64,000 bases of DNA from a virus: IMG/VR virus record IMGVR_UViG_3300038454_000106, positions 37,698 to 101,697 of that record, one strand, 5' to 3'. The notes beneath the pieces were generated by a model. That model searched no databases. It had not been told where the DNA came from and worked only from the letters and a program-made list of their open reading frames with translations. Numbering within the stretch: the first letter of the stretch is position 1; each line of letters opens with the position of its first letter. A program made the position numbers and the translations under genes. Positions 29,642-64,000 of this stretch are shown here, one piece after another.

Positions 29642-30319
29642 TTAGCTCACAACGAATCGCCTGTAACGCATGAAGATCGATGCCCATCGCGGATCACGGT
29701 GACCGCGGAAGTAGTCCCGTCCGGCCCACGGTGCACCATCCGTCTCGACGATGGCGCGGCCAAGCTGGCGATCATTGCTCGCCGAGCAATGGGCCACGCG
29801 GAGTCGATGGTACGGTGGAGCCTTCGTGTTCCATTCGAATTCGGAGAGCAACTTGCCGTGGCCGTCGACCATGCCAGTGACCATGCCAACGTGGCCGATA
29901 CGATCTCGACTGCCATCGCGATCGTAGTCAATCGAGGGGTACACGATCAGGCACGCGGACTCGGGCCACGAGATGATCTCGAACCACCGCATACGCGTGT
30001 GAGCTTCGAGAATCATGGAGTCAGTGTTGGCCCAGTCCCAGAGCGGTGCAAAATCGGGCTGCATGCGGTCGAAACCAAGACTCCAGGTCTGGTATCCAAC
30101 GCAGTCGCACGTTGCGCGACGGAGCTTGAGCACTGGAGAGCGCCAGTGCGTCGCCGGATCGAAGGCATCCGGATCCGCGCCCCCGTTGTGCCCTGGCTCC
30201 ATGCTGTAGCGGATCGCCCTGCCGCCCTCACCGAGCATGCGCCGGGCTCGTTGGAGCGCCTGCTCACGCGTCATGGAACGGACGCGCCCGCGCTTCGCGA
30301 GTGTTGCCGCGTCCGCCAT
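29642..30319 (-). CDS. NlpC/P60- or CHAP-like cysteine peptidase, 225 aa
   Basis: A catalytic pattern is visible: Cys in ATCDCVGYQTWSLG (about residue 73) and His in RIGHVGMVTGM (about residue 142), as in wall peptidases. There is no signal peptide. Arg-rich N-terminus. It lies at the start of the virion/lysis-type genes and probably cuts peptidoglycan cross-links during entry or lysis. Confidence 0.65.
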   Translation of the reverse strand: MADAATLAKRGRVRSMTREQALQRARRMLGEGGRAIRYSMEPGHNGGADPDAFDPATHWRSPVLKLRRATCDCVGYQTWSLGFDRMQPDFAPLWDWANTDSMILEAHTRMRWFEIISWPESACLIVYPSIDYDRDGSRDRIGHVGMVTGMVDGHGKLLSEFEWNTKAPPYHRLRVAHCSASNDRQLGRAIVETDGAPWAGRDYFRGHRDPRWASIFMRYRRFVVS

Positions 30320-30322
30320 GCG

Positions 30323-30565
30323 CTACCGACGGTATCGGCGCCTGCGTCGAGCCATCATCCGAGGCCCATACAGGCCCCGGAGTGTCTTGCGACCACTCTT
30401 GAACTTCTGCAGGCCCCAGACGACGGGATACGACACGATGAACCCGGCGATGCCAGCCGAGGCCAGCGTCAACGCGGCCATCACGGGCAACGGTTGCCGC
30501 AGAATGAAGTCACCGACGGGGTTGCCGAGGCTACGCGGTCCATCGAGAGTCATCACGCTTGGCAT
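30323..30565 (-). CDS. small membrane protein with Arg-rich tail, 80 aa
   Basis: GGAGGG is 7 nt before the start MPSVMTLDGP. One or two membrane segments (LPVMAALTLASAGIAGFIVS) precede a strongly basic end (MMARRRRRYRR). Typical of membrane virion components. Confidence 0.6.
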   Translation of the reverse strand: MPSVMTLDGPRSLGNPVGDFILRQPLPVMAALTLASAGIAGFIVSYPVVWGLQKFKSGRKTLRGLYGPRMMARRRRRYRR

Positions 30566-30567
30566 GG

Positions 30568-30816
30568 TCAATCCCTCCATCCCGGGCGATCACTCTGCAC
30601 ACGTTCACAGATTCGATCGACCTCGACGGTGGCAGCGTGCCACGGTGCCTTCTCTCGAAGCGAGGCTCCCCGGGGTGGACGTGCCACGTCGAGATGATTC
30701 CGGGCTACGTGACAATCACGTCTCTTGGCGGCTGCCACGGCGAGCCTGAGATGATCTGCCCCCGAACCGAGATCCCGACGGCGCCGCCTGCGCTTCTTGC
30801 GACTCCTGCCGCTCAC
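30568..30816 (-). CDS. Arg-rich protein, 82 aa, paralogue of 31208
   Basis: The GTG start overlaps the upstream stop (GTGA). MSGRSRKKRRRRRRDLGSG, then AAAKRRDCHVARNHLDVAR. The Cys-x2-Ala-Arg-x-His-Leu block recurs in the 31208 protein. Probably binds nucleic acid or phosphate-rich surfaces. Confidence 0.6.
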   Translation of the reverse strand: MSGRSRKKRRRRRRDLGSGADHLRLAVAAAKRRDCHVARNHLDVARPPRGASLREKAPWHAATVEVDRICERVQSDRPGWRD

Positions 30817-31208
30817 GCGTTTCTCCAGCCGTGCCACGAGGCGCCGATCATCGTCACGCCGGCGCCAACATCGATCGCGCCAGCCGTGAGGTGCGGTACC
30901 TTGTCGTAGCCCCTCGAGTTGTAGAAGTACAAGCCACCGAGCACCGTACTCCCAAGGCCCGTGAGCCCACCGAGTCCAGCGGTGACCTTGGCGAGAGTGG
31001 TGTGCCCCTTGCGGCCCAGAGCGATCGAGCCGAACGACGCGGCGAGCCCAGCAGCAAGCCCAGCCCACTCGAGCCAGGTCAAGTCGACGTAAGGAATCGG
31101 GCCACTGAGGAACGTGGGCAGCGGTGCGCCGAGCATCTGGGGCAGGTTGCCCAGCATCTGCGGCATGGAGTTACCGAGGACGGCGGGCAGATGAGTCGAC
31201 GTGAGCAT
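30813..31208 (-). CDS. membrane protein, 131 aa
   Basis: Two to three hydrophobic segments (WAGLAAGLAASFGSIALG, TAGLGGLTGLGSTVLGGLYF and VGAGVTMIGAS). The start is ATG 31208, or GTG 31211 overlapping the previous stop. Probably part of a virion or host membrane complex. Confidence 0.6.
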   Translation of the reverse strand: MLTSTHLPAVLGNSMPQMLGNLPQMLGAPLPTFLSGPIPYVDLTWLEWAGLAAGLAASFGSIALGRKGHTTLAKVTAGLGGLTGLGSTVLGGLYFYNSRGYDKVPHLTAGAIDVGAGVTMIGASWHGWRNA

Positions 31209-31468
31209 CACTTCCTCCGACGACGGGGACCCTGGAGGCCACCGCAGCGATCGGCCACCGCGTCGGCGGCCTGGTAGTAGAGGCGCCGGTCAGTCGGCGA
31301 GCCACCTCGGGCACTCTCGAGATGCATGCGCGCGATGCCACACTGGCCCTTGGTGGCCGCGCGGTACGCCATGAGCCGGTGCTGACTCCGGCCCGAGGAT
31401 GTCGCCACCGAGCCGAGCCCTTTGCGCTGGTAGCGGCGACCATGCTTGCGCTTGCGGCTGCGCGACAT
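31208..31468 (-). CDS. basic protein, 86 aa, paralogue of 30568
   Basis: MSRSRKRKHGRRYQRKGLGS, then AATKGQCGIARMHLESAR and a basic end (GPRRRRK). Same architecture as the 30568 protein. Probably DNA-binding. Confidence 0.6.
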   Translation of the reverse strand: MSRSRKRKHGRRYQRKGLGSVATSSGRSQHRLMAYRAATKGQCGIARMHLESARGGSPTDRRLYYQAADAVADRCGGLQGPRRRRK

Positions 31469-31469
31469 G

Positions 31470-31727
31470 CTAGCGCCTTCGCTTCCAGAAGTACCGTCCG
31501 CCAAGGAGCGCACCTGCCGCGCCACCGACGGCGGCCCAGAGCTTCCAGTTGCCGAGCACGTCAGTCACGCCCGCGAGCTGATCGATGCCTTCCATGCTGG
31601 CTGGATTCCAGAAGAACGCGCCATGTGCACCCTCACTGGTGCCATAGGCGGGCACGATCCGGATCCGCTGGTACGGATTCAGCGGCTCGAGGCCAGCGAC
31701 CTGCTGCCAACGGCGGGCGGCGATCAT
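31470..31727 (-). CDS. tail-anchored membrane protein, 85 aa
   Basis: The start MIAARRWQQVAGLEP at 31727 is set by the TATGCT box 6 nt upstream. The C-terminal segment LWAAVGGAAGALLGGRYF is followed by WKRRR, a tail anchor with a basic end. Confidence 0.6.
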   Translation of the reverse strand: MIAARRWQQVAGLEPLNPYQRIRIVPAYGTSEGAHGAFFWNPASMEGIDQLAGVTDVLGNWKLWAAVGGAAGALLGGRYFWKRRR

Positions 31728-31733
31728 GCCAGT

Positions 31734-31739
31734 AGCATA
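31734..31739 (-). promoter_or_regulatory. -10 box TATGCT, leaderless-type
   Basis: TATGCT-N6-ATG before the 31470-31727 gene. Confidence 0.5.
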
Positions 31740-31760
31740 CACGGTGACTTACGGAGCGTG

Positions 31761-32387
31761 CTAGTGAATCGGGACGCTACCCCGGAGGACCGCCAGATTG
31801 AAGGCTCGCCGCACCGGGGGATAGAGACTACACAGCCGGCCCATCTCCCGCGGAATCTGGTCCCGGAGCGGGTCTCGGTCACTCCAACGGATCCAGCCGT
31901 CGACATCGGCCATGGACACGTCAGTCTCCGTCTCGCTGGCGTGCTGATCGGTCGATGGCGCTGCGTCGGTGCGCTCCAAGTGGACCACGTAGCCGGCCAG
32001 CGCCAGGGGGTGCCGATCCTCGAGCTGGCGCAGGGTGGCCAACTCATACTGGTACCGACAGTCATCCACCACGTACAGCGGGCCGTCCTCGGCGACAACT
32101 CGGTCGATCAGGGCCTTGACGAGCACACCCTGTCCCAGGCCAGACCGGAGTCCATCGCCGATGCGCTGCAAGAGCCAGCGCGGAGTGACTCCATAGCGAG
32201 AATCGATGGCTTCCTTGCGCGCCGGATCGCGCAACATCTCATTCGTGAAACCGAAGGCATGAGACACGATCGAACGCAGCGGCTCAGCAAACGAGAGCAG
32301 TCTCGCACCATAGGTCGCGACGAGAATCTCGGCCGCCGTCGACTTGCCGGTCTGCTTCCGCCCGTGAAACGCGATGATCGTTTTCAT
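31761..32387 (-). CDS. deoxynucleoside monophosphate kinase
   Basis: 208 residues with the Walker A motif HGRKQTGKST at residues 8-17, then TPRWLLQRIG and the YVVDDCRYQYEL block seen in T4 gp1-like dNMP kinases. It phosphorylates dNMPs for virus DNA synthesis. ATGA overlap with the 32384 gene; clusters with the methylase and polymerase. Confidence 0.85.
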   Translation of the reverse strand: MKTIIAFHGRKQTGKSTAAEILVATYGARLLSFAEPLRSIVSHAFGFTNEMLRDPARKEAIDSRYGVTPRWLLQRIGDGLRSGLGQGVLVKALIDRVVAEDGPLYVVDDCRYQYELATLRQLEDRHPLALAGYVVHLERTDAAPSTDQHASETETDVSMADVDGWIRWSDRDPLRDQIPREMGRLCSLYPPVRRAFNLAVLRGSVPIH

Positions 32388-33250
32388 TCAGCGACGCTAG
32401 ATGGCCTAGACGACACCGGGCCATTGCTGCCGTCGTCGGCGATCTGGACCGGCACCTCACCGTAGAGCACGTCATCGTCGCGATCGGACCTGTGTGCCAT
32501 GGTGCGATTCCGCACGTCGGGCCGCAACGCGTCAAACGCCTTGCGCAGGGCGACCTCTGCGAGAATCACAGCCCGCAGCTCGCCCTCGACGGGGAGCCAG
32601 CTCTCGTGCCCGACGCCATCGAAGCCCGCACAGTACTCCACCACGACGTCACGATTGTTGATCACCACGCGATAGGAACCAGCGACCTTACCACCCTCGT
32701 AGGTGAACCGGATCACGCGACGCTTGTTATCGGCGCGACGCTTGACCTCGGCGTTGATGACGTTGAATCGAGCCTCGGCCTCCCGCTGGCGTTCGGCCTC
32801 CCGCCGGCGTTTCTCGAGCTGCCAGCTCGTGGCGAACTCACGCAGGTTGCGCTCGATAGTCTCGAGATACGCGCTGAGCCGGTGGCCTGAGTCCATGACA
32901 GCGTCGATCGCCTGCATGAGCACCGTCATGCGCTGGAGCGCCTGCTCGGTCTGGGCCTCGACCTGTGCGTCGTGGAGCGCCTGGTAGACGGTGTGGTGGG
33001 ATTGCACGACGCGCGCGCTGAGCCCAGCGGCCGTACACGCCATCTCGGCGGCCTCGGTGAGCAGCCGGCTCGATGAGCGAACCGTGTCTCCACGGCCCGT
33101 CGAGTATCTCCAGCCCTCGTGTGCGATCGCGCCGATCAGGTCATGGAGAACCTCTGGATCGAGGCCTGGCACGTAGTCTCTGAATCGCTCGAAGAGCGTT
33201 TGCTCGAACGGATCGCTCGTTGGCTTGATTTCCACGTCGGACTCGCTCAT
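32384..33250 (-). CDS. helical protein, 288 aa
   Basis: Starts MSESDVEIKPTSDPFEQT at 33250, coupled by ATGA to the methylase upstream. A long coiled coil (LEKRRREAERQREAEARFNV) lies in the middle, then a beta segment and an acidic tail. It may be a replication accessory protein; it is not recognised. Confidence 0.6.
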   Translation of the reverse strand: MSESDVEIKPTSDPFEQTLFERFRDYVPGLDPEVLHDLIGAIAHEGWRYSTGRGDTVRSSSRLLTEAAEMACTAAGLSARVVQSHHTVYQALHDAQVEAQTEQALQRMTVLMQAIDAVMDSGHRLSAYLETIERNLREFATSWQLEKRRREAERQREAEARFNVINAEVKRRADNKRRVIRFTYEGGKVAGSYRVVINNRDVVVEYCAGFDGVGHESWLPVEGELRAVILAEVALRKAFDALRPDVRNRTMAHRSDRDDDVLYGEVPVQIADDGSNGPVSSRPSSVAE

Positions 33251-34074
33251 GGCTCCCTCCCGATGTTGCTGGTGATGAGTAGGCACTCAGCCGCCTGCCG
33301 GCGCGTGCTATCTGCCGCGATGGTGCGAGACTCGAAGATGGGCTCGACGGTGGCCCACCGGTAGAGCCCCCGGATGCGAGGCGTGTCCGCGTTGCTCGTG
33401 ACGACGGCAGCGCCGCGACGTGCGGCGCTCCACAAGACCCGCGCGAGCTGCTCCTGATCGTCGGGACCGAACCCCTCCGCCGTGTAGCCATCGAAGCCCT
33501 CGTCATAGGGTGGATCGGCGTAGATGACCGGGGGAGCGACGCGAGTGATCTCCCGAGCGATGACATCGTTGGCGAGCGCGTGGCCGATGGCAGCGTTCTG
33601 CAGCGCGCTCGCCGCGGCCTGGAACGCGTCGAGGCTAGCGAGATACTGGCGACCGTCGCCATAGGGCACGTTGAACTCGCCGGCCTGGTTGACCCGCCAG
33701 AGGCCGTTGAAGGCAAACGCGTTGAGGTAGAAGAACCGAGCCGCATCGTCGAGCGTCCGTGCGCCATACTTGACCAGACTGCGCTCCTTCTCGTACTGGT
33801 CACGTGCGCTGCGCGTCCAGATCCGCTCGGAGGCGAGCGTGTGGAGAGCCAGTGGCGAGCGACAGACCCATCGCCAGGCATTGACGACGTCGGAGCAGGC
33901 ATCGGCGAGCAGCATCCGGCGCTCCGGCATCGCCAAGGCAACGGCGCCGGCCCCGAGAAATGGCTCGACATAGAGGGCGCCTGGGCGGGCCTCGAGCGCC
34001 CGCTCGAGGAGCGGGACGATCGTCGAGACCAGACGACGTTTGCCGCCCGGCCATCGGAAGATGGGCTCGGCCAT
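33247..34074 (-). CDS. Dam-type adenine-N6 DNA methyltransferase (D12 class)
   Basis: 275 residues with FRWPGGKRRL (S-adenosylmethionine site), YVEPFLGAGAVAL and the catalytic VIYADPPYDEGF. It probably methylates adenine in a short palindromic site, which would protect or mark element DNA. In one operon with the dNMP kinase. Confidence 0.9.
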   Translation of the reverse strand: MAEPIFRWPGGKRRLVSTIVPLLERALEARPGALYVEPFLGAGAVALAMPERRMLLADACSDVVNAWRWVCRSPLALHTLASERIWTRSARDQYEKERSLVKYGARTLDDAARFFYLNAFAFNGLWRVNQAGEFNVPYGDGRQYLASLDAFQAAASALQNAAIGHALANDVIAREITRVAPPVIYADPPYDEGFDGYTAEGFGPDDQEQLARVLWSAARRGAAVVTSNADTPRIRGLYRWATVEPIFESRTIAADSTRRQAAECLLITSNIGREP

Positions 34075-34080
34075 AGGGCC

Positions 34081-34344
34081 TCAACGTGCGTGCTGCGTCA
34101 GCGCCAACTCGCGCATCGCCGGATAGACCTGCTCGCACGAGGCCAGGAGGTGATGCTCCATCGCGTCGAGGTGTGCGATGCACTTTCTCACGATGGCCTC
34201 CATGGCTGCGCGCGGATCCGCATCGAACGCGTGCTCGAACGTCGGCATCGGCGCTGCGTGCACACGAAGTCTCAGGCCGCCCTGGGTGAGGGTCCAGCAG
34301 AACTCGAGATCTCCATCGGTCGCGACACTGGTGATATTCAGCAT
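34081..34344 (-). CDS. hypothetical protein, 87 aa
   Basis: MLNITSVATDGDLEFCWTLT, beta N-terminus then helices. Its start is 7 nt after a TAGCGT box, with no Shine-Dalgarno. First gene of the methylase-kinase operon. Confidence 0.6.
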   Translation of the reverse strand: MLNITSVATDGDLEFCWTLTQGGLRLRVHAAPMPTFEHAFDADPRAAMEAIVRKCIAHLDAMEHHLLASCEQVYPAMRELALTQHAR

Positions 34345-34351
34345 GGCTCAC

Positions 34352-34357
34352 ACGCTA
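34352..34357 (-). promoter_or_regulatory. -10 box TAGCGT, leaderless-type
   Basis: TAGCGT-GTGAGCC-ATG before the gene ending at 34081, heading the methylase / dNMP kinase operon. Confidence 0.55.
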
Positions 34358-34370
34358 GCGGACGCAGACG

Positions 34371-37124
34371 TCAGACCTCTGCCCACGACTTTCCTTTCTT
34401 GGTCTCGATCGGGAACGGGATCGTCATGCCGTTGACGGCCGTGTGACTCTGCTCGAAGCAGTCTTTGACATCGACCATGAGCCGGTCGGCGTCGTCCTCG
34501 TCGCACTCGAAGATCACCGCATCGTGCACGTCGATGATCGGAAACGCACGGCGACGAAACCTGCGCAGACGCGGCATGATCCGAACAAGCCCGCTCTTGA
34601 TCATGTAGGCGCTGAACGACTGGATGCCCCAATTCACCACGTCGGCCGGCGAGAACATGCCGAGCGGGAACGCACGGAGCCGGTTCAGGAGGAGGCATCG
34701 CATCTCGTGCGGTGGCTTCGCAACTGCAGTCAAGATGCGCTGCTTCCAGGCAATGAGCTGGTGCATCTTCGAGCGCATGAGCGCGATCATCTCGCGTGTC
34801 TTGGCGAGTGAGATCGTCGGGTCACCGAGCTTGACGATGAGCGTCTTGTGGACCGTCTCCTCGGAGCCCTCGTAGAACGAGGCATATTCGGCGTTCTTGA
34901 CGCCCTCACGCAGGATCGAGCGCGATACATCATCCAGCTCCCAGAACTGGGGCCACACCACGGCTGCAAACTCGGCGTGAATGTCCTTACCCCTGGCGAA
35001 GACATCGCAGAGCCAGTCATCGCCTGAGACGAGTGCGATGGCACGGGCCTCCTGCTGCCTGACATCGAACCCGACGAAGATCCGGCCCAGCGGCGCCACG
35101 ACCTGCGCGCGGAGATTCGGGAGCCCAGCGAAGCACACACCACGGCGCGGGATGATCGTGTCGGTGTGCGGACACTCGCCCTTCTTGGGCTTGCTGTGCC
35201 AATAGGCATCAACGCCGACGAGAAGCACCTTGCTCTTGCAGGCGAGGCACTGCATCGGATCGCCCTTGGAGTAGTTTTGGACAACTGGCGCTGAGGCGCC
35301 CCATCGGCCGGTAATCTTGTGTACCGCCCACGTGGGATGGATGCGACCATCATCCTGGACGTGACCGAAGATCGTCTGTCCCTTCTCGTCGACGTGATCG
35401 TACATCGGCAAGACGAAGGTCCCGTAGATCTTCTCACGCTCGCGGAACTCGATGAGCTTCTGCACCATCTGGACGTGCCGGAACTGCTCGAGCACCTCGG
35501 CATCCGTCGCGGGCTGCTTACCGCTCTTCGATCGCTTCTTGAGGAACAGGCCAAGCGACTGGAGCAGTGCCACGACCTGGAGCTGTGCATTCGGATTGAA
35601 CTGCCAGCCCTTCTTTGTAGCTCGCTTTTCGATCTCGGCTCGCCGGAGGTGATAGCGCTCGATCGCCTTGTCGGGATCGGTCTTGCGCTTGACGTTGGCT
35701 TGCTGCGCGGCGAGCCGATCCCAGACCTCGCTACGCTTGCTATCGACGGCCTCGCGCAGCTCGAGGAGCGAGCGGTCGATGACGTCCTTGAGGACGATGG
35801 CCAGCTCGAGATTCACCTCGCGGCTCATCGGGATGCCGTCGAGATGCATCTGGCCTGCGATGAGCGCACACTGGCGATCCAACTCGTAGACCTGCTCGAC
35901 CTCTCGGCGCTTGATCCAGAGCGTGAGCGGCGCCGTCAACGCATGCGTGCTGAGAACATCCTTGGCACAGTACGTGACCGTGTCTTGGTCCGAGTCACCG
36001 CTCGCCCTATACTCGGACTTCCACGGCTCGACGGCCCAGAACTGCGACACGATGGTCTGCAGCTTGTGGCTCATGCCAGGGAACGTGACGTGATGCATGA
36101 GCATCGTGTCGTCCCACGCGTCATCCACCTCGAAGCCGAGCGCCTTGAAGACCGTACGGTCATAACCGATGCCATTCTGGCCAATCTTGCGGATGGCTGG
36201 ATTCTTGAGCAGCAGGCGCAAGAGACGGACTGCATTTGAGCTCAAGAGGCTCCATAGCACCGAGCAAGCCCAGCTTTCGGTGGCGAGCCCGAGCACGCGG
36301 ATCTTCGCTGCGAAGGGCTGGCGCGCATCATGACGCTTGGGGTTGTCGACGTAGGTCTCGAGGTCGATCGTGATCGCGCGTTCCTGCAGGGCTCGTCGGT
36401 ACGCATCGGCCACGAGCTTGTTGGCACGAGTGACGTCGGCGATCTCGGTCTCGATGCCCGAGAAGTCGAGGCGGATGTCACGACCCCGCGCGAGCGACTC
36501 GATCTTGCCCGCTGAGTAGACCAGGTTCCAGAAGCCGATCTCGGCCGCATGCGCGCCCTTCACCTCGCCACCACCGCGCAGGATCGCAGCCGGGTGGATC
36601 GTCGGGATCACGTCGCGCACACGGCCCGTGCCGTCGACATCGACGGCGTGCCACGTGTCCGCCAGCTCGGTGATGCCCTCGAGCCGCGTGGGCAATAGCG
36701 TGCGCGCTGCGATGGCACCCAGTGCGAGGATCGGCACTGGAGGAAGCGAGGCCAGCTCGCGCTGAAGTCGTGGCAAGCAGGCCTTGGCGGCGAGAAGTTT
36801 CTCCTTGATGTCAGCGTTCGGCGGCGGACGGCAAAGCGTCGAGTTCGTGATCCACACCGTCGAGCGATCACGATGAACTTGACTCAGCATCTTGGTGACT
36901 AGCGCGCCCGACGGGCCGATGAAGGGACGAGCCATCTGACACTCTTGTGCGCCAGGGCTTTCTCCGACGATGATCCAGGCCGGATCCTCGGCTGGCCCCT
37001 CGGCGGTAACTGGAGTCGCGGGCATGCCATTACGGGAGAACGGGCACGAAGCACAGTCCGCGCCGGCGACCGATCCTCGACGGTAGGTCCGGATTACCCC
37101 GTCGAATGGGAGATCGTCATCCAC
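34371..37124 (-). CDS. uracil-DNA glycosylase / 3'-5' exonuclease / family A DNA polymerase fusion
   Basis: 917 residues. Residues 20-200 are a family 4/5 uracil-DNA glycosylase: GESPGAQE at 54-61, HPA at 177-179 and Cys24, Cys27, Cys98, Cys116 placed as the iron-sulfur ligands. Residues about 245-400 are a DnaQ-like exonuclease (TIDLETY, then GQNGIGYDRTVF and YCAKDVLSTHALT). The C-terminal 350 residues are polymerase I-type, with motif A FDVRQQEARA, motif B REGVKNAEYASFYEG and motif C VHDAVIFE. There is no 5' nuclease domain. It is probably the replicative polymerase of the element, able to excise uracil. GTG start with a -10 box 8 nt upstream. Confidence 0.93.
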   Translation of the reverse strand: MDDDLPFDGVIRTYRRGSVAGADCASCPFSRNGMPATPVTAEGPAEDPAWIIVGESPGAQECQMARPFIGPSGALVTKMLSQVHRDRSTVWITNSTLCRPPPNADIKEKLLAAKACLPRLQRELASLPPVPILALGAIAARTLLPTRLEGITELADTWHAVDVDGTGRVRDVIPTIHPAAILRGGGEVKGAHAAEIGFWNLVYSAGKIESLARGRDIRLDFSGIETEIADVTRANKLVADAYRRALQERAITIDLETYVDNPKRHDARQPFAAKIRVLGLATESWACSVLWSLLSSNAVRLLRLLLKNPAIRKIGQNGIGYDRTVFKALGFEVDDAWDDTMLMHHVTFPGMSHKLQTIVSQFWAVEPWKSEYRASGDSDQDTVTYCAKDVLSTHALTAPLTLWIKRREVEQVYELDRQCALIAGQMHLDGIPMSREVNLELAIVLKDVIDRSLLELREAVDSKRSEVWDRLAAQQANVKRKTDPDKAIERYHLRRAEIEKRATKKGWQFNPNAQLQVVALLQSLGLFLKKRSKSGKQPATDAEVLEQFRHVQMVQKLIEFREREKIYGTFVLPMYDHVDEKGQTIFGHVQDDGRIHPTWAVHKITGRWGASAPVVQNYSKGDPMQCLACKSKVLLVGVDAYWHSKPKKGECPHTDTIIPRRGVCFAGLPNLRAQVVAPLGRIFVGFDVRQQEARAIALVSGDDWLCDVFARGKDIHAEFAAVVWPQFWELDDVSRSILREGVKNAEYASFYEGSEETVHKTLIVKLGDPTISLAKTREMIALMRSKMHQLIAWKQRILTAVAKPPHEMRCLLLNRLRAFPLGMFSPADVVNWGIQSFSAYMIKSGLVRIMPRLRRFRRRAFPIIDVHDAVIFECDEDDADRLMVDVKDCFEQSHTAVNGMTIPFPIETKKGKSWAEV

Positions 37125-37132
37125 GAGGTGGG

Positions 37133-37138: not shown

Positions 37139-37150
37139 CGGGCCTGCGAC

Positions 37151-57061: not shown

Positions 57062-57769
57062 TCAGACCACGGGTCGCTTGATCAACCCTACCTTCTCGAC
57101 CTTGAAGTCCATGAACGTCAGGGCGACGCCGCCATCCGAGGCGGCCTGGCTGATCACCAGCGCTGCCTCTGGGAACATCGCCATCTTGTAGCCCAGGTTC
57201 TCTTGCTCGAGGATCGGCAGCACCATCGACCAGCGGTCACGCGGGCTCGGCACACCGTTCTGCGCCAGCTCGAAGTCGCCAGTGGTGGCGAACACGTTCC
57301 AGCCGTGGCCCTGGGGGTAGTTCTGCATGACCCCCTGCGAGTAGATCTTCTCGCGGTACTCGTACTGCAGGAAGGTCACGCGATCGACGCTGAACAGCGT
57401 CTGCAGACGCACCGGGTTCGACAGCGCGCCTGCACCGTCGGCGAGCACCGGCTGGGTCTGTCCGGTCGGCGGACGCGTGACGCGGACCGCCTTGCACGCG
57501 ATCGTGTAGACCAGCATCGAGAACGCCTGCGGCAGTCCGTTCGGACCCGGGCGTGGGATGTTGGTATCGACACGCGTCATGGTGCGCGTGCCACCGGGGA
57601 TCTGCTGCGAGCGGCCGGCGGAGAACGCCTCGACGGGGGTTCCCTGACCGTTGGAGAGCTGGACCGTGCCGTAGTAGCGGTCATCGATCCAGTCCGCCAG
57701 CTCGATGACGGTTCCGTCCGCGAGGGCGAGAGTTGAGGTTCCTGGGGCTACACCGACAGTTCCAACCAC
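57062..57769 (-). CDS. major capsid protein candidate, 235 aa
   Basis: GTG start after GGAG. Predicted beta sandwich: DDRYYGTVQLSNGQGTPVEA, then GLPQAFSMLVYTIACKAVRV, TLFSVDRVTFLQYEYREKIY and ALTFMDFKVEKVGLI. No signal or anchor. Adjacent to the 167-aa beta protein in one leftward operon, as small and large capsid genes are in sphaerolipovirus-like phages. Confidence 0.55.
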   Translation of the reverse strand: MVGTVGVAPGTSTLALADGTVIELADWIDDRYYGTVQLSNGQGTPVEAFSAGRSQQIPGGTRTMTRVDTNIPRPGPNGLPQAFSMLVYTIACKAVRVTRPPTGQTQPVLADGAGALSNPVRLQTLFSVDRVTFLQYEYREKIYSQGVMQNYPQGHGWNVFATTGDFELAQNGVPSPRDRWSMVLPILEQENLGYKMAMFPEAALVISQAASDGGVALTFMDFKVEKVGLIKRPVV

Positions 57770-57836
57770 GGGTCACTCCTGAAGGAGGTTGCAAGGAGGG
57801 CTCGTGAAACCCTCGGATGGCGCCGTCGGCAGTGGC

Positions 57837-58418
57837 TCAGTGCGCGCTGAAGAGGTTGGCACCGTAGGCGGAAGCGAGACCATGAGGAGCCTGCAGCGTC
57901 GGGCCGGCGAGCATCTGGGCCTGCATGCCCAGCGCGCTGCCACCCCCGAGCAGGTTGATCGGCGGACCGAGCGCAGCCGACTGCGCGACGCCAGCGACAC
58001 CGGGCACCGTGCCGTAGGAGGATGGTGTCGGGATCACGGTCGCGACGCCGAGCCCGCCGTTGAGATAGTTGACCTGCGGAAGGCCAAGCTGATTCACGAC
58101 GGGCACGCCGAACGCGCCCATGAACGAGCCCTTGGTGAGCTTGTTCTCGATGGCACCGACGCCAACGGCGAGAAGTCCACCGAGCACAGCGCCCGCGCCC
58201 GCACCATGCGTGTCCGGTCCCATCGCGTAGAGCACGCCTCCCGAAAGCGCCGCCAGACCAAGTCCGATGTAGAGCGCTTTGTCCGCCACAGAGGGGATGA
58301 ACTTGGATCCGATGTAGCCGGCTGCTGAGGCACCACCACCGATGGCCAGACCCCACAGGGGATTCAGACCGACCGTGCGGCCGAAGTCATCGATACCGAG
58401 CAGGTTGACGTGCGCCAT
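57837..58418 (-). CDS. Gly/Ala-rich multi-pass membrane protein, 193 aa
   Basis: MAHVNLLGIDDFGRTVGLNP, then three to four hydrophobic Gly-rich segments (WGLAIGGGASAAGYIG, YIGLGLAALSGGVLYAMG, GAVLGGLLAVGVGAIE) and a Gly/Ala-rich tail. GAGGAG upstream. Probably the main protein of a virion internal membrane; inference from position. Confidence 0.6.
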   Translation of the reverse strand: MAHVNLLGIDDFGRTVGLNPLWGLAIGGGASAAGYIGSKFIPSVADKALYIGLGLAALSGGVLYAMGPDTHGAGAGAVLGGLLAVGVGAIENKLTKGSFMGAFGVPVVNQLGLPQVNYLNGGLGVATVIPTPSSYGTVPGVAGVAQSAALGPPINLLGGGSALGMQAQMLAGPTLQAPHGLASAYGANLFSAH

Positions 58419-58447
58419 GACTTTGAATTGCTCCTCTGGTGGGCGGC

Positions 58448-58618
58448 CTAGCAGCGACCCTCGAACTTGCGACCGTTCCTGTGATCAGGAGACTTTGGCA
58501 CCACACACACCTTCACGCGTTGACGAGTACGGGGATTGAAGGTGCACCAGCACGTGCCGATCGGTTTCTCATCTGGTTGATAGGCGGAGAGCGACTTGTC
58601 GCGTCGCCGACGCGGCAT
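58448..58618 (-). CDS. basic Cys protein, 56 aa
   Basis: MPRRRRDKSLSAYQPDEKPI, then CWCTF and a basic end. Starts on the upstream stop (TGATG). Unknown; similar in style to the other Cys/Arg peptides. Confidence 0.6.
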   Translation of the reverse strand: MPRRRRDKSLSAYQPDEKPIGTCWCTFNPRTRQRVKVCVVPKSPDHRNGRKFEGRC

Positions 58619-59193
58619 CAAGAACCTCGAGACCACGTCCAGCCCGGGGACTGCACGGAGGTGAACGGGTACATATCGGCGGCTTGTGCGCGAGCACCGA
58701 CCATGCCTCCGATGCGATCGTCGATGAGGTGACGGGAAAGCGCCACCGGAGCATAGGCGATCGGAGTCATGGCCGCCGCTGCCGACGCTGCTGGATTGAG
58801 CACCGGCGGGAACACCTTGGCACCTTGGGTGACCGCCCGCATCGAGATCGCGAGGGCGGCTTGCTCTTGGCGATTGAACTGCGGTGCATTGGCCGTCGGG
58901 ATCGCCATCGAGGTCTGGTCACCATAGAGACCCGACATTCCGCTCCGGCGCAGGGCGGCCTTCATGCGCTGCTTGGCGGCCCAGAGCTTGATGCGCTCGA
59001 TGACGCCGACAGGGCGATCGCCAAACCCGCCACTCTGCAGCGCGTCCTGAACCCGAGGTTGCCAGATCGCCGTGAATCGCGCAGCGACCTCCTGCGCATT
59101 CATCACGGGCTGGTATCCCGGAATGGCCGTGAGGACACCCGTATACATGACCGCGTCGGGTCGAATCAGGTGCAGCTCCTCACCATGGCGCAT
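58618..59193 (-). CDS. helical protein, 191 aa
   Basis: The start MRHGEELHLIRPDAV at 59193 is fixed by the promoter 7 nt upstream. Mostly helical with an Ala-rich segment (LNPAASAAAAMTPIAY). First gene of the leftward capsid operon (59193 to 55308). Could be a scaffold or assembly protein. Unknown. Confidence 0.6.
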   Translation of the reverse strand: MRHGEELHLIRPDAVMYTGVLTAIPGYQPVMNAQEVAARFTAIWQPRVQDALQSGGFGDRPVGVIERIKLWAAKQRMKAALRRSGMSGLYGDQTSMAIPTANAPQFNRQEQAALAISMRAVTQGAKVFPPVLNPAASAAAAMTPIAYAPVALSRHLIDDRIGGMVGARAQAADMYPFTSVQSPGWTWSRGS

Positions 59194-59200
59194 GGCGATC

Positions 59201-59229
59201 ACTCTAGGAGTGTCTGCTCAGTAGTTCAA
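59201..59229 (-). promoter_or_regulatory. promoter of the capsid operon (TTGAAC-17-TAGAGT)
   Basis: -35 TTGAAC (59224-59229), 17-nt spacer, -10 TAGAGT (59201-59206), then 7 nt to the ATG at 59193. The clearest complete promoter of the leaderless class. Confidence 0.7.
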
Positions 59230-59257
59230 CACTCGTCGTGAGTACCGTTGCCGTCCC

Positions 59258-59304
59258 GAGCAAGCTAGTGATGCAACGGCTGTCAAAGCATGCCAAGCTT
59301 GCTC
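59258..59304. promoter_or_regulatory. inverted repeat upstream of the excisionase-like gene
   Basis: GAGCAAGCT (59258-59266) and AGCTTGCTC (59296-59304) are perfect complements; the second ends 1 nt before the GTG at 59306. Candidate operator between the capsid operon and the regulator. Confidence 0.55.
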
Positions 59305-59305
59305 A

Positions 59306-59491
59306 GTGAAGCTCTACCGACTCGATGAAGTCGCCGCCCAGCTCGGTGTCTCGGTAACTACGATCCGCCGATTGCTCGCGTGCGGGAAGCTCGCGCACGT
59401 GCGAGTTGGCGGTCAGAACCGGATCCGCGATGTCGACGTGGCCGCCTTCATCACAACCAACACTTCGAGTGCGCCACGAGTCCGGCGCTAG
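59306..59491 (+). CDS. excisionase/MerR-type HTH protein, 61 aa
   Basis: MKLYRLDEVAAQLGVSVTTI, then RRLLACGKLAHVRVGGQNRI is the standard helix-turn-helix-wing of the excisionase family. Probably a regulator of the divergent capsid operon. An Xis role for one of the recombinases is also possible. Confidence 0.85.
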   Translation: MKLYRLDEVAAQLGVSVTTIRRLLACGKLAHVRVGGQNRIRDVDVAAFITTNTSSAPRVRR

Positions 59492-59796
59492 AGCTTGCGC
59501 CAGACGCTGAAGGCGAGGAGGGCTGCACCCGCGAGGCCGAGATACCATCGGTTCTCGTAGAGCCAGCCTCCGGCGCGAAACCAGTCGGTGACGCCGTCGA
59601 TCTGTCCACTGGTACGGAGCTGCTCGACCTGCTGCGGTCCCAGCGTGCTGCGAGCGGAGTTGACCATGACGTACCCGAGTCCGTTCATGGCCTGCTGCCA
59701 GGCGGCCGACGACGGCACGAACCGGTTGAGCCTCGGGTTGAGATTCGGATCCGACGAGAACTGCCAGGTTGGGATGATGCCGAACGGCCCGTTCAT
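59488..59796 (-). CDS. tail-anchored protein, 102 aa
   Basis: The start MNGPFGIIPTWQFSSDPNLN at 59796 follows GAAAGG. C-terminal anchor WYLGLAGAALLAFSVW, then RKL. Overlaps the HTH gene tail to tail by 4 nt. Possible virion membrane protein. Confidence 0.6.
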   Translation of the reverse strand: MNGPFGIIPTWQFSSDPNLNPRLNRFVPSSAAWQQAMNGLGYVMVNSARSTLGPQQVEQLRTSGQIDGVTDWFRAGGWLYENRWYLGLAGAALLAFSVWRKL

Positions 59797-59797
59797 A

Positions 59798-60031
59798 CTA
59801 GGGAGCCTTTCGGACGTGGTGTGGCAACGTTGCATAGTACTTGCCACCGACCGTGACGACGACGACCTGGCTGCCGTCGATGCTGCGCGTCCCGACGCGA
59901 CGCCCACACAGCCTCTTGGACGACATGATCAACTCCCAGCGCTCCGACGAGCTGCCACGCCAGTTGCGCTTTCCCTCATACTCGTAGATGTAGCCATCGC
60001 CGAGACACACGCGACCGCTTCGCTTCACCAT
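59798..60031 (-). CDS. hypothetical beta protein, 77 aa
   Basis: MVKRSGRVCLGDGYIYEYEG, then strands ending TVGGKYYATLPHHVRKAP. GGGAGCAGGAG upstream. Unknown. Confidence 0.55.
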   Translation of the reverse strand: MVKRSGRVCLGDGYIYEYEGKRNWRGSSSERWELIMSSKRLCGRRVGTRSIDGSQVVVVTVGGKYYATLPHHVRKAP

Positions 60032-60216
60032 GGACTCCTGCTCCCTGTGAGTTGCTTCTGAGACCGCAGGGTCATCCACAACGAGATGCCCGCGCCCAGC
60101 AAGGCAACGATGGAGATGCCGAATGAAAAGCCCGCTAGGTTCCACTTCGCGACCGGCCTGACCGACTTGGGTCGCCGCTTGAGGTTGACGGTCTCGCGTT
60201 CAGAGGTCTCGGCCAT
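60025..60216 (-). CDS. membrane protein, 63 aa
   Basis: MAETSERETVNLKRRPKSVR, then one membrane segment (AGFSFGISIVALLGAGISLW) and a short tail. Overlaps the next gene's start by 7 nt. Unknown virion-type component. Confidence 0.55.
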   Translation of the reverse strand: MAETSERETVNLKRRPKSVRPVAKWNLAGFSFGISIVALLGAGISLWMTLRSQKQLTGSRSPW

Positions 60217-60223
60217 GGTCGCC

Positions 60224-60478
60224 TCACTTCTTTGGCTTGCCGTAGCCTTCCCAGAACGCGACGGCGGGCGTGATGATCGGAAATACGTAGCCGAGCACAA
60301 ACCATCCGACGCCCCACCCGACGGACCCGTTGTTGCGATGGTAACCGTGGTAGCCGGACACGAGCCCGGAGACGGTACCGACGACACCCCAGAAGCTCAG
60401 GCCAGGGATCGTCAAGCCGAGCTGGGAGTCGCCGACCATTCGGGAACTAGGACGTGGATAAGGCATCATGTGCGGCAT
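60224..60478 (-). CDS. membrane protein, 84 aa
   Basis: Two hydrophobic segments (FWGVVGTVSGLVSGYHGYH and VGWFVLGYVFPIITPAVAFW), His/Gly/Tyr-rich loop, basic end. Unknown. Confidence 0.55.
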   Translation of the reverse strand: MPHMMPYPRPSSRMVGDSQLGLTIPGLSFWGVVGTVSGLVSGYHGYHRNNGSVGWGVGWFVLGYVFPIITPAVAFWEGYGKPKK

Positions 60479-60487
60479 GCTTGCCCC

Positions 60488-61168
60488 TCAGGCATCGAAG
60501 TCAGCGTGCTTGGCGTAGGGGGCCTCGAGCCCGAACCGTCGGCCCGGGAGAGTCGAGTCGAGGGCGACCCACTTTGTCGGTGCGTACTTCGGCAAACCCG
60601 CCATCACGTAGATATGGGACCAGTCCCCTCGCTTTGAGGTCGCCGTGACTCGAAGCCGGGGCTCGATGCCGTTCAAGGAGAGTAGCGTGGCCAGCAGAAT
60701 CGACTGATCATCGCAGTCCCCTGCGCCCATGGACCACGTGTTCCAGCCCGTCTGATAGTAGTCGATGGAATCCTTGGGCCCGTTGCGGCCATGCTTGATC
60801 GGCGCGACGTCGCCGGAGTAGCGGACCCGAGCCTTGACCGCGTTGTAGATGGCTTTCGCCTCGCACAGCCCGTCTCGCTCGGGACACGCCCGAACAGCAT
60901 CGGCGGCGATCGACTTCATCCTCGGATCTGATACTGACTTGAAGACCTGATCTTGGATGATCCCGATCCGCTCCTGGATCGACATTCGGTGAGTGCGGAA
61001 GAGTTGAGTCATGCCGTTGCCAGCATGCGTCACCTGCACCGGATTCGGACGCGGCATTGGACCAGGCGCGTAGTAGCCGAGTGGGGATCGTCCCTTCCAT
61101 GCCCACGCCAACGCCCCTAGCGCGGCAATACCGCCCACGCCAAGGAGCACCTTGGTCGAGGTCTTCAC
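60488..61168 (-). CDS. transglutaminase-fold cysteine protease-like protein, 226 aa
   Basis: N-terminal anchor (TKVLLGVGGIAALGALAWAW). Transglutaminase-like core with the Cys-His-Asp triad: GAGDCDDQSILLATLLSLNG, WSHIYVM and WVALDST. It probably cleaves or cross-links a protein, perhaps in capsid maturation or entry. The GTG start is 6 nt after a TAGCGT box. Confidence 0.75.
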   Translation of the reverse strand: MKTSTKVLLGVGGIAALGALAWAWKGRSPLGYYAPGPMPRPNPVQVTHAGNGMTQLFRTHRMSIQERIGIIQDQVFKSVSDPRMKSIAADAVRACPERDGLCEAKAIYNAVKARVRYSGDVAPIKHGRNGPKDSIDYYQTGWNTWSMGAGDCDDQSILLATLLSLNGIEPRLRVTATSKRGDWSHIYVMAGLPKYAPTKWVALDSTLPGRRFGLEAPYAKHADFDA

Positions 61169-61174
61169 GAGTCC

Positions 61175-61180
61175 ACGCTA
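61175..61180 (-). promoter_or_regulatory. -10 box TAGCGT, leaderless-type
   Basis: TAGCGT-GGACTC-GTG before the transglutaminase-fold gene. GCGTTGACG lies 8 nt upstream, and a second GTTGAC at 61213 points the other way. Confidence 0.5.
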
Positions 61181-61255
61181 GCACGAGACGTCAACGCAAC
61201 TCGAGCAAACGTGTTGACTAGCGGAGCGCTGGTGTTCTATGCGACCCTCTCCGGC

Positions 61256-61846
61256 ATGCTCCAGGCATTCATGATCCCGTCCCCGCGCATGCTTGGATGG
61301 CATGGTGCTGGGCTTGGCGCCGCCAATGCCAACGTCAAGGCGATGCAGCAGGCGCTCGCGGCCTATGCAACGGCCACCAACTACCCGCTCGCGAACCCGG
61401 GCGCGATTGACGGCTTCATCGGCCCACGGACTCGTGATGCCGTCCTCGCGGTCTTGCCTCGTCTGCCCAAGCTGCCAAGTGCGGTCAAGTCACTCCTGCA
61501 GTATGGAGCCATGGTTGCGGTGATCCCCGAGGTGGCGAAGCATCTCGACGACCTGATCGTGTCCTACGCCTCCGAGATCACCACAGCGCTCAAGCTGCTC
61601 CAGGTAGTGCAGACGCCAGCGACGCCAGGGACACCCACGGGTGCAGGCACGACGGCGACGCCTGTCGTCCCTGCTACTCCGGCCCCTGGGGCAAGCTTGC
61701 CGGCCGTCCCGACGCCAGCCGCAGGCCTACCAGCGACCGGCGCTCTGCCGGCCCCGGCCTGGTACAAGACAGGTCCTGGGATGGCCGCGCTCGGCGTCGG
61801 AGCCACTGCCGTCATGGCAAGCGCGATCCTCCTGGCGACGAGGTGA
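61256..61846 (+). CDS. peptidoglycan-binding-like tail-anchored protein, 196 aa
   Basis: Starts MLQAFMIPSPRMLGWHGAGL at 61256 (start uncertain; ATG 61271 and GTG 61211 also fit). PG_binding_1-like AIDGFIGPRTRDAVLAVLPR, Pro/Thr/Ala-rich linker, anchor GMAALGVGATAVMASAILLA. Same plan as the 40875 protein. Confidence 0.65.
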   Translation: MLQAFMIPSPRMLGWHGAGLGAANANVKAMQQALAAYATATNYPLANPGAIDGFIGPRTRDAVLAVLPRLPKLPSAVKSLLQYGAMVAVIPEVAKHLDDLIVSYASEITTALKLLQVVQTPATPGTPTGAGTTATPVVPATPAPGASLPAVPTPAAGLPATGALPAPAWYKTGPGMAALGVGATAVMASAILLATR

Positions 61847-61849
61847 TCC

Positions 61850-62155
61850 GTGCTGGGCTATGACTGCTTTCCGGGCGTCGCGGGTGGCTGTTCCCAACGA
61901 GGGCTCGGCGACACCAAGGACGAGATCAACAATTGGCTCAAGACCGTCCCTGTGGTTGGCTCGGCGCTGCAGTCCGGGCTCGACAAGCTCGTCACCTACA
62001 TCAAGTCGGAAGCCGAGACCGGCGCCAAGCAAGCCATCCCCCAGATCCGGAGTGAGGTCCGCGACGAGGTGAAGCCCTATATCATCGCAGCGGTGGGGCT
62101 GTCCGCCGTTGCAGCCGCCATCGGGATCACTGCCCTGGTGCGAAGGAAGGGCTGA
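61850..62155 (+). CDS. amphipathic tail-anchored protein, 101 aa
   Basis: GTG start, MLGYDCFPGVAGGCSQRGLG. Long amphipathic helix then anchor AAVGLSAVAAAIGITALVRR. Resembles virion membrane or vertex-base proteins. Co-transcribed with 61256. Confidence 0.6.
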   Translation: MLGYDCFPGVAGGCSQRGLGDTKDEINNWLKTVPVVGSALQSGLDKLVTYIKSEAETGAKQAIPQIRSEVRDEVKPYIIAAVGLSAVAAAIGITALVRRKG

Positions 62156-62159
62156 GGCC

Positions 62160-62417
62160 ATGCCACGGATCTGGTGCGAGGAGCAACTCGCTTCCAAGAA
62201 AGCCATCGATCCTGGCTCGTATCGCTGGATCCGGAGGGGACGAGCCCGGCTGCTGGTCATCTGCCCCAGGGGTCATTGGCATCCGAGGCGAAAGCCTGGC
62301 AAGCAGTGCGACGTCAGGCTCCGTGCATACAAGAAATATGTGGACCGTGGCGGGCGATGTCGCGTCTACGAGCGCCGAGTGAGCAAGGACTCGCCTTTCT
62401 TCTCGCGCCATCGCTGA
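62160..62417 (+). CDS. basic Cys protein, 85 aa
   Basis: MPRIWCEEQLASKKAIDPGS, strongly basic, four Cys (ICPRG, QCDVR, RCRVY). Likely nucleic-acid binding. Third gene after 61256. Confidence 0.6.
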   Translation: MPRIWCEEQLASKKAIDPGSYRWIRRGRARLLVICPRGHWHPRRKPGKQCDVRLRAYKKYVDRGGRCRVYERRVSKDSPFFSRHR

Positions 62418-62430
62418 CATCGCTGACTCG

Positions 62431-62436
62431 TAGGGT
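62431..62436 (+). promoter_or_regulatory. -10 box TAGGGT, leaderless-type
   Basis: TAGGGT-GGCTCGC-ATG before the gene at 62444. Confidence 0.6.
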
Positions 62437-62443
62437 GGCTCGC

Positions 62444-62704
62444 ATGACGCGAGAGACGTCGAGGACCGCCGCTGACTCGATTCAGCCTGACACGCAGCGC
62501 CTCCGTCGGCTCGTCTTTACCGCACTCAGGGCAAAGGGGAGCCATGGGATGACCTGCGACGAGGTGGAGGTGATCTGCAAGCTGCGCCACCAGACGGCGA
62601 GCGCGCGGATCCGCGAGTTGTTCGTCCAGTCGCGCATCAAGGACTCTGGCCAGAGACGGCTCACGCGCAGCAACCGGACCGCGATCGTATGGGTAGTGCG
62701 ATGA
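62444..62704 (+). CDS. winged-helix-like protein, 86 aa
   Basis: RLVFTALRAKGSHGMTCDEV, then ICKLRHQTASARIRELFVQS has the spacing of a winged HTH with a recognition helix. Probably DNA-binding, possibly a late regulator. Stop overlaps the next ATG (ATGA). Confidence 0.65.
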   Translation: MTRETSRTAADSIQPDTQRLRRLVFTALRAKGSHGMTCDEVEVICKLRHQTASARIRELFVQSRIKDSGQRRLTRSNRTAIVWVVR

Positions 62705-62811
62705 GACTCCTTGGCTACGTAGTGGCGGCGCTCGCCGTCACCGTTGCCGTGGTCGGCTGTGCGGTGTCATATCAGGCACTGCGCAGGAAGGACGATCGAG
62801 ACGTCAACTGA
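62701..62811 (+). CDS. small lipoprotein/membrane peptide, 36 aa
   Basis: MRLLGYVVAALAVTVAVVGC is a signal with lipobox VVGC, or a single membrane helix, followed by a charged tail (LRRKDDRDVN). Coupled to the upstream gene by ATGA. Unknown. Confidence 0.6.
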   Translation: MRLLGYVVAALAVTVAVVGCAVSYQALRRKDDRDVN

Positions 62812-62816
62812 CGTGA

Positions 62817-62822
62817 TACCGT
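62817..62822 (+). promoter_or_regulatory. -10 box TACCGT, leaderless-type
   Basis: TACCGT-TGCTGCC-ATG before the gene at 62830. GACGTCAACTGACG lies immediately upstream. Confidence 0.6.
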
Positions 62823-62829
62823 TGCTGCC

Positions 62830-63567
62830 ATGGTCATCCCCAAGCGAGTAGGGGTCGCGCCAGGCACGACGACTCTGCATCTGGGCGCCCCACCGAGCAA
62901 AGGGGAGAGCTGCATCTACTACGGTCCCGTGAACACGATGGGCTCCTTCGGGCCTCTCACCTCGTATTCGAGGAACGTGTCTCCGGCCATGCCATCGGCG
63001 GCCAGTGCACCCCTGGGACCCGGCAATCCATACGGCTCGGAAGCGGAATTCAAGGGTGGACTCGGCTACATCATCACGCCGACGGGCTACACGCCAGGCC
63101 GGGTGCCCTGGGAGGTCGTAGGGCTCTACACCGACTCGAAGGGCCGCCGCGGCTGCGATCCGCAACACAACGAGCGTGGTGAAGCTGGCTTCTACTACGA
63201 TACCCAGCTCGGTGGGCTCGGTCGGGGCATGCCCACGGATGCACAGATGTCGGTCCAGCATGGCTGGACGCCGACGTTTGGGCCCGGGTACATGCCCGTC
63301 GTCGACCAGATGGTACCGACGGCCGATGGGAGGCTTCTGCCGTTGCCATGGGTCCCACCGGACGGATGGAATCCGGCTGGCCGATCGGGGCCCGCCTCGG
63401 CTTGGGGCCGCAAGCCATCGGGTCTTGGCGAGTTGACCGAGGAGGAGATCCGGGCCAACGCCGACCGCATGTACAAGCTCGCGCTGTACGGTACCGTGGG
63501 CGGGCTTGCGCTCGGGGCCATCACCCTGATCGTGACGCTCGCCCGAAAGTCGTCGTCGTCGTCTTGA
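62830..63567 (+). CDS. tail-anchored protein, 245 aa
   Basis: MVIPKRVGVAPGTTTLHLGA; Gly/Pro/Tyr-rich soluble domain of about 200 residues and C-terminal anchor LALYGTVGGLALGAITLIVT, then LARK and a Ser run. Probable virion membrane-associated protein. Unknown family. Confidence 0.6.
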   Translation: MVIPKRVGVAPGTTTLHLGAPPSKGESCIYYGPVNTMGSFGPLTSYSRNVSPAMPSAASAPLGPGNPYGSEAEFKGGLGYIITPTGYTPGRVPWEVVGLYTDSKGRRGCDPQHNERGEAGFYYDTQLGGLGRGMPTDAQMSVQHGWTPTFGPGYMPVVDQMVPTADGRLLPLPWVPPDGWNPAGRSGPASAWGRKPSGLGELTEEEIRANADRMYKLALYGTVGGLALGAITLIVTLARKSSSSS

Positions 63568-63579
63568 GACGAGGCCGCT

Positions 63580-64000
63580 ATGAGCATGTCCGCCAACGTC
63601 GCAGAGGCGATCAAGATCCTTCGCACCGCCGAGACCGAGCTGACGAGCGCGGTAAACCTCGGCTACACGACCGCAGTCGTGATCCCGGGTCCCGTCCCTG
63701 CGCCCGAGGAGACGACCATCATCGCGCTACGGGCGACAGGGATCCCGGGTCCGATCGCGATCAAGGCCGTCCTCATGAACGGCGACAAGTACATGGCTTG
63801 GCGGGCAGCATGGGAGGTGCTCATGGCCTTTGCCGGCTGGTGGGGCCGGCAGGCGCGTTGGCCGCTTGGCGACGGTGAGCGTGCCAAGAAAGATCCGACG
63901 ACGGCGGCAGGTATGCCACCGCTGGGCGCTGGGCTCGCGGCGCTGTCCGCGACCCTGACAGCGATCACAGCACCGACCTGGAAGCCGTCCGTACGGCTCG
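63580..64000 (+). CDS. hypothetical protein, partial at the right edge
   Basis: ATG 63580 after GAGACGAGG. MSMSANVAEAIKILRTAETE, then a hydrophobic/Pro segment and an open frame of 140 codons to the end of the window. No stop reached. Helical then Ala-rich. Unknown; continues the rightward late operon. Confidence 0.6.
   Translation, partial: MSMSANVAEAIKILRTAETELTSAVNLGYTTAVVIPGPVPAPEETTIIALRATGIPGPIAIKAVLMNGDKYMAWRAAWEVLMAFAGWWGRQARWPLGDGERAKKDPTTAAGMPPLGAGLAALSATLTAITAPTWKPSVRL

Follow-up and report, generated by a model that had tools for sequence, protein, structure and literature searches.

A conserved lineage of large, probably temperate phages that are likely to be tailless and membrane-containing, known from genes alone

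What kind of particle is encoded by a viral genome that is rich in small membrane proteins and in which the genes of a tailed phage are not recognised? This question is raised by the window, a stretch of 64 kb comprising positions 37698-101697 of the 101,697 bp IMG/VR virus record IMGVR_UViG_3300038454_000106, and especially by its interval w29642-64000, which an earlier note had read as the virion module of a non-tailed phage with a membrane. Here, w coordinates are window positions (contig position minus 37697), and the 150 genes called in the whole record with a simple codon-usage model are numbered g1-g150. It seems likely to us that the window belongs to a conserved lineage of large phages which are probably temperate, have no tail, and contain a membrane, and whose particle is known from genes alone. 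The non-tailed virion module is well supported, because neither terminase nor portal was detected in the adjoining sequence and in 16 relatives and because g136 encodes a jelly-roll of the viral type. A membrane inside the particle is only indirectly supported, by anchored proteins and by a match to Salisaeta icosahedral phage 1 (SSIP-1).

For the 53 called proteins of w29642-63999 that were used for family searches, matches to PHROGs (16 families, all polymerase, methylase, kinase, deoxynucleoside monophosphate (dNMP) kinase, or unknown) and to Pfam (20 families, of these kinds and in addition Transglut_core, thioredoxin, TPR, and beta-propeller) include no head, tail, or packaging family, and such families are also absent among the first 25 of 36 families obtained with NCBIfam. 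It is thereby confirmed that no terminase, portal, or tail-type gene is recognised in the interval. A wider hallmark screen with four Pfam models covered 17 records, i.e., the window record including its adjoining sequence and 16 relatives; very divergent forms could escape these models and the one PHROGs and NCBIfam pass. Terminase_6N (PF03237), Phage_portal (PF04860), and Phage_capsid/HK97 (PF05065) match in 0 of the 17 records, and the controls match in other genomes; the terminase/portal set in the adjoining sequence that the earlier note had named as speaking against its proposal was not encountered. FtsK_SpoIIIE (PF01580) gives no match above the cut-off in the 17 records nor in SSIP-1, again with matching controls, and this includes the flanks for which an FtsK/A32-like packaging ATPase had been predicted. 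Because such an ATPase was not found, the lineage is not of the PRD1/PM2/P23-77 type in the strict sense.

The shared core proteins of more than 300 amino acids (aa) are g2, g16, g17, g18, g20, g64, g107, and g133. g2 is a coiled-coil protein devoid of Walker A, g16 is of the AAA helicase type, g17 is SNF2, and g18 is PDDEXK, and the core leaves no large unexplained protein that could be a terminase, a portal, or a tape measure. Classical Walker A motifs of the window contig are those of g16, g20, and g103, besides one chance match in g14.

Searches with g137 and g144 gave the first three relatives and profile searches then added others; besides the window record, the lineage now counts 22 IMG/VR records (17-221 kb) as well as two contigs that were binned together in a Gemmatimonadota metagenome-assembled genome. 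A sister clade consists of three records (96, 89, and 88 kb) with a g137 identity of 34-36%. Nine records are closed circles (77.5, 80.4, 81.5, 85.2, 85.3, 85.7, 89.2, 137.9, and 195.8 kb) as judged from direct repeats of 90-127 bp between their ends, as is usual for closed circular assemblies; the end repeat of G7, G8, and G13 sits slightly inside the extreme end. Common to the closed relatives, with minor departures, is a core gene order which, read from g137, is 137-136-135-133-(132)-131-(118)-24-(112/111/117)-64-105-107-21-20-18-17-16-7-4-3-2-149-144-143-139-138; the most divergent member, G14, is without recognisable replication orthologues. The window contig keeps this order except that g133 and parts of the middle are inverted. 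In closed relatives g149 and g2 lie close together, and because the order is kept and the contig ends fit this g149-to-g2 junction, the window contig is probably a near-complete circle and the window most of a circular double-stranded DNA phage of ~102 kb. No description of the lineage was found in the open-access literature, most preprints and subscription papers being outside that search.

A compact group of beta-rich proteins, as noticed earlier, does exist at w54391-57769, and one of its members is a confident jelly-roll. It contains the two candidates for capsid proteins:

w57062..57769, minus strand: g137, 235 aa, beta-rich, candidate major capsid protein (conservation; AlphaFold2 and Foldseek)
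w56397..56900, minus strand: g136, 167 aa, single jelly-roll, candidate second capsid protein (AlphaFold2, Foldseek, position near g137)

Conservation within the lineage is highest for g137 (57-69% identity in 17 relatives), which finds no match among INPHARED phages. Its AlphaFold2 model (18 sequences) reaches a predicted local distance difference test (pLDDT) of 56 and a predicted template modelling score (pTM) of 0.56, and its best Foldseek matches are for the most part jelly-roll capsid proteins of viruses, with no match reaching E 0.001. Of the fold tests suggested for these two products, that of g137 gives a low-confidence model of a beta-rich protein with non-significant jelly-roll matches, and that of g136 yields a viral-type jelly-roll with high confidence (pLDDT 91.3, pTM 0.84, beta sandwich). 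PDB matches of g136 are mostly viral jelly-rolls, with the KHP40 cement protein at the top and HHIV-2, HCIV-1, and SH1 chains (TM-score up to about 0.45, best E 0.0025), and nine BFVD matches reach E<=0.001, with tail proteins occurring among the BFVD matches; therefore the fold class is clear, the specific relative is not. The BFVD match with the best TM-score (0.54), I1ZBI0 (256 aa), has the length of SSIP-1 gp47, an identity that is not confirmed. g136 lies close to g137 in every record checked, and in the sister clade their adjacency, the 138-137-136 block, and the transglutaminase-like gene are all kept. Profiles of g136, g137, and g133 do not match each other, and PDB sequence searches with g137, g136, and g144 profiles gave nothing useful. 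From fold, conservation, and position we infer a capsid role for both g137 and g136. G006 has a second g137-like protein, which is very divergent (L111:18776-19285; hidden Markov model (HMM) E 1.5e-7).

Membrane proteins are frequent in the interval, where 18 of 47 proteins of <=300 aa possess a predicted transmembrane (TM) segment compared with 3 of 44 in the remaining window; this is fewer than the more than 20 small membrane proteins counted earlier. Summed over the nine closed relatives, TM proteins make up 40% near g137 vs 18% elsewhere. The enrichment amounts to hydrophobic composition, because shuffling of residues still leaves 14 TM proteins on average. More distinctive is a lone C-terminal TM segment with a basic tail behind it, encountered in 13 of 133 proteins of the window contig (9.8%), in 3-15% of the proteins of relatives, and in 5 of 53 of SSIP-1 (9.4%), vs 1 of 114 in bacterial contigs (0.9%). 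Small Arg/Lys-rich proteins, 7-8 of which had been pointed out, are not enriched (6/47 vs 10/44). The 34 kb interval is also too wide to be one virion module: it is heterogeneous, with nucleotide/DNA metabolism at w31761-37025 and lineage-specific, host-like cargo at w45814-52712, and the conserved virion block is w53034-63567, from where the module runs past the window end into contig positions 66-4262.

The link to a phage with a known virion depends mainly on one gene of this block:

w60488..61168, minus strand: g144, transglutaminase-like with N-terminal TM segment (Pfam PF01841, 6.4e-8)

The g144 family conserves Cys152, His185, and Asp204 in its alignment. Among 50,697 phage records, g144 has SSIP-1 as its sole match, at gp34, which is annotated as structural protein (HMM 5.4e-18; hhalign 98%). 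As both proteins belong to Transglut_core (PF01841), a relationship at superfamily level, the match is suggestive and not proof. SSIP-1 is a tailless phage of 100 nm with T=49, a circular genome of 44 kb, an internal membrane, and two types of major capsid proteins proposed to be single jelly-rolls (PMC6260650, PMC5332951, PMC6356626). Like SSIP-1, the lineage has large circular double-stranded DNA (nine closed circles) with an integrase gene (15 records), a transglutaminase-like protein (g144, corresponding to the structural protein gp34), a RecA-fold ATPase, small membrane-anchored proteins at similar frequency, and a layout in which a hydrophobic protein is followed by beta-rich structural genes (gp44-gp48 in SSIP-1). 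It differs in size (77-221 kb vs 44 kb) and in its capsid candidates, and the annotated genes of SSIP-1 include no PolA, SNF2, or UDG gene. gp48 shows a weak match to another family cluster of the lineage and gp44-gp47 show none, and IMG/VR scans for gp46/gp47 gave only SSIP-1 itself. g20 aligns with gp40 at the level of the RecA superfamily (hhalign E 7e-6, prob 84%). Since gp40 is a virion protein predicted to package DNA (PMC4124505) and is of the same fold family, the RecA-fold ATPase g20 would be the best candidate for the packaging motor.

Sphaerolipoviridae, Simuloviridae, and P23-77 possess two single jelly-roll capsid proteins, to which the two adjacent candidates of 167 and 235 aa might correspond, and the g136 model resembles the jelly-roll chains of SH1, HHIV-2, and HCIV-1, among other viral jelly-rolls. 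In contrast to them, the lineage has no FtsK/HerA-type ATPase above cut-off, its PDB searches reveal no sequence similarity, and its genomes are far larger than the 16-30 kb of their members (PMC12642351, PMC6260650). With PRD1, PM2, and FLiP it shares the concept of a tailless, membrane-containing phage, but g136 is a single jelly-roll and a double jelly-roll appeared in no protein tested (g133, with 306 aa, was outside this test). PolA, SNF2 helicase, Sak4-like ATPase, Dam methylase, integrase, and beta-helix spikes are common to the lineage and Caudoviricetes, which differ from it by terminase, portal, and an HK97-fold capsid, none of which was matched in the lineage.

A more specific proposal, which we make tentatively although it is quite possible, is that of a lineage at family or order level consisting of icosahedral jelly-roll phages with internal membrane and circular genomes of 77-221 kb, employing neither terminase nor FtsK/HerA motor. 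In the main reading, which we hold to be likely, g137 and g136 would build an icosahedral shell from single jelly-roll capsomers, with a lipid vesicle inside. Proteins having a single C-terminal membrane helix plus a basic tail might sit in this vesicle and face DNA or shell. Membrane-anchored peptidoglycan (PG)-binding and transglutaminase-like proteins might act on the wall at entry, by opening or remodelling it, or in maturation of the particle, and the beta-helix proteins g27 and g28 may be receptor-binding spikes. Replication would be carried out by an own set of a fused uracil-DNA glycosylase (UDG)-PolA protein, AAA helicase, SNF2 helicase, RecB-type nuclease, and Sak4-like ATPase, and the tyrosine integrase would offer a lysogenic option. 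If volume is scaled at the DNA density of SSIP-1, diameters of about 130-170 nm are estimated for 100-221 kb.

Several points weigh against this main reading: the particle has never been seen, no packaging ATPase is recognised for one of such size, g137 is poorly modelled, and jelly-rolls are also found in fibres and cement proteins of tailed phages. Furthermore, the g144-gp34 match could reflect a shared widespread domain, g20 matches Sak4 better (8e-19) than gp40, and the capsid candidates g133-g138 lack sequence similarity to SSIP-1 gp44-gp48 in profile comparisons, also with deeper alignments. The lineage might therefore be one of tailed phages whose head, tail, and packaging genes have diverged too far for profiles, the jelly-rolls being head decoration, cement, or fibre, as the KHP40 cement protein, the tail proteins in BFVD, and the tail-spike PHROGs matched by g27 and g28 (outside the window) would allow. 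This is unlikely, as nine circular genomes share one core in which no terminase-, portal-, or tape-measure-type protein is left over, and the Pfam controls do give matches in other genomes.

A plasmid-like or satellite element without its own particle, using its membrane and wall proteins as cell-surface or transfer system, would agree with ParB and integrase and with the many membrane- or wall-related proteins, but is very improbable in view of a conserved viral-type jelly-roll beside a highly conserved partner, spike-like beta-helix proteins, many small phage-typical genes, and the similarity to a virion protein from an actual phage. Numerous anchored proteins and the failure to find a packaging ATPase would also suit a non-icosahedral or enveloped (pleomorphic) virus that is dominated by membrane proteins and needs no packaging motor; the same highly conserved jelly-roll and strongly conserved partner suggest an ordered shell, and we give this explanation very little chance. 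In the reading as tailless phages with an internal membrane, bacterial jelly-roll phages could be as large as many tailed phages (circles to 196 kb, one record of 221 kb). SSIP-1, with 44 kb the largest tailless membrane phage that we found in the open-access literature, already provides a precedent above 40 kb and would gain a possible broader group. The lineage would surpass all known tailless phages in size by a wide margin, exceeding them several-fold, and would raise the question by what means such an amount of DNA enters the particle when no motor is recognised, perhaps by a new packaging solution. Viral surveys relying on terminases and HK97 capsids would miss the whole group.

Other genes serve replication and integration, ParB is also present, and the tyrosine integrase makes the phage probably temperate:

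w9118..10062, plus strand: g64, lineage-conserved tyrosine integrase (PF00589, 4e-16; 15 records)
w31761..34074, minus strand: g103-g105, dNMP kinase, protein without assigned function, and Dam methylase, not virion (PHROGs, Pfam)
w34371..37025, minus strand: g107, fused family-4 uracil-DNA glycosylase and family A DNA polymerase, not virion (PF03167, PF00476; 14 relatives)

In relatives (G007, G012, G013, and the contig piece L055) the UDG-PolA protein is interrupted in frame by insertions that contain intein-splicing, LAGLIDADG, and HNH domains, and it reaches up to 1989 aa in G013.

The remaining genes of the interval, with the conserved virion block from g131 on, are as follows:

w38680..42041, strand unspecified: g111-g117, lipoprotein-like, small membrane, basic, PG-binding/TM, and beta-rich proteins (g111, g112, g116, and g117 with orthologues in 6-11 records)
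w42093..44284, plus strand: g118 and g120, paralogous, predicted wall-hydrolase-like (10 records; g118 without Pfam match)
w53034..53396, minus strand: g131, thioredoxin-like, conserved in the block (Pfam Thioredoxin_2 2e-5, just under cut-off; 15 records)
w53398..54309, minus strand: g132, 303 aa, two TM segments (cluster in 6 records)
w54391..55311, plus strand: g133, 306 aa, divergent beta-rich protein, inverted in the window genome (12 records, about 25% identity)
w55308..56066, minus strand: g134, 252 aa, C-terminal TM segment (from sequence)
w56070..56387, minus strand: g135, 105 aa, small beta-rich protein (16 virus records, same position)
w57837..58418, minus strand: g138, 193 aa, Gly-rich hydrophobic (membrane) protein adjoining g137 (16 records and sister clade)
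w58618..59202, minus strand: g139, virion-module protein (12 records)
w59488..60439, minus strand: g140-g143, small; g140, g142, and g143 membrane-anchored (g143 in 15 records; TM segment and basic tail)
w61232..61846, plus strand: g145, PG-binding-like domain, Pro/Ala linker, C-terminal TM segment (PF01471 9.7e-4, below cut-off)
w61850..62155, plus strand: g146, C-terminal TM segment with basic tail (orthologue clusters, TM/tail scan)
w62830..63567, plus strand: g149, C-terminal TM segment (11 records; motif scan)
w63580..64000, plus strand: g150, truncated by the contig end (weak paralogy with g1 at the contig start)

Four wall-active or protease-fold enzymes had been proposed for the interval; the Transglut_core of g144 is firm, PG_binding_1 is weak, and the others are unconfirmed by Pfam. 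An N-terminal motif GVAPGTTT, common to g137, g149, and small membrane proteins of the module, is seen in G5, G6, G7, G10, G11, and G14 and is perhaps a common assembly or processing signal.

The cargo block has almost no orthologues in relatives:

w45814..52712, minus strand: g124-g130, TolB-like propeller, myxobacterial-type Cys-rich repeat, Ser/Thr kinase, and TPR protein (Pfam, NCBIfam)

Its Cys-rich repeat and Ser/Thr kinase hint at a myxobacterium and are the sole basis for the host named in the earlier note; the kinase also matches defence-associated kinases. A different member was binned together with Gemmatimonadota, though its contigs are separate and connected to the rest through N gaps. 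Neither host is proven, because the evidence consists of host-style cargo in one case and of N-gap-joined contigs in the other. The published "Gemmatimonadota chromosome" CP070815.1 (G017) is a scaffold assembled through 100-N joins and includes two complete contigs of a virus of the lineage, at 2.228-2.275 and 3.658-3.720 Mb; a provirus in this chromosome was rejected as proof of integration, since each viral piece is an entire contig with a 100-N gap at either end. Elsewhere in the window record, a complete acyl-CoA dehydrogenase-like gene without orthologues in relatives is located at contig 26892-28043 (L003:6892-8040), and a protein of 1270 aa at contig 31299-35111, minus strand (L003:11302-15111), carries an eCIS core domain (E 9.8e-11), which is unusual for a phage.

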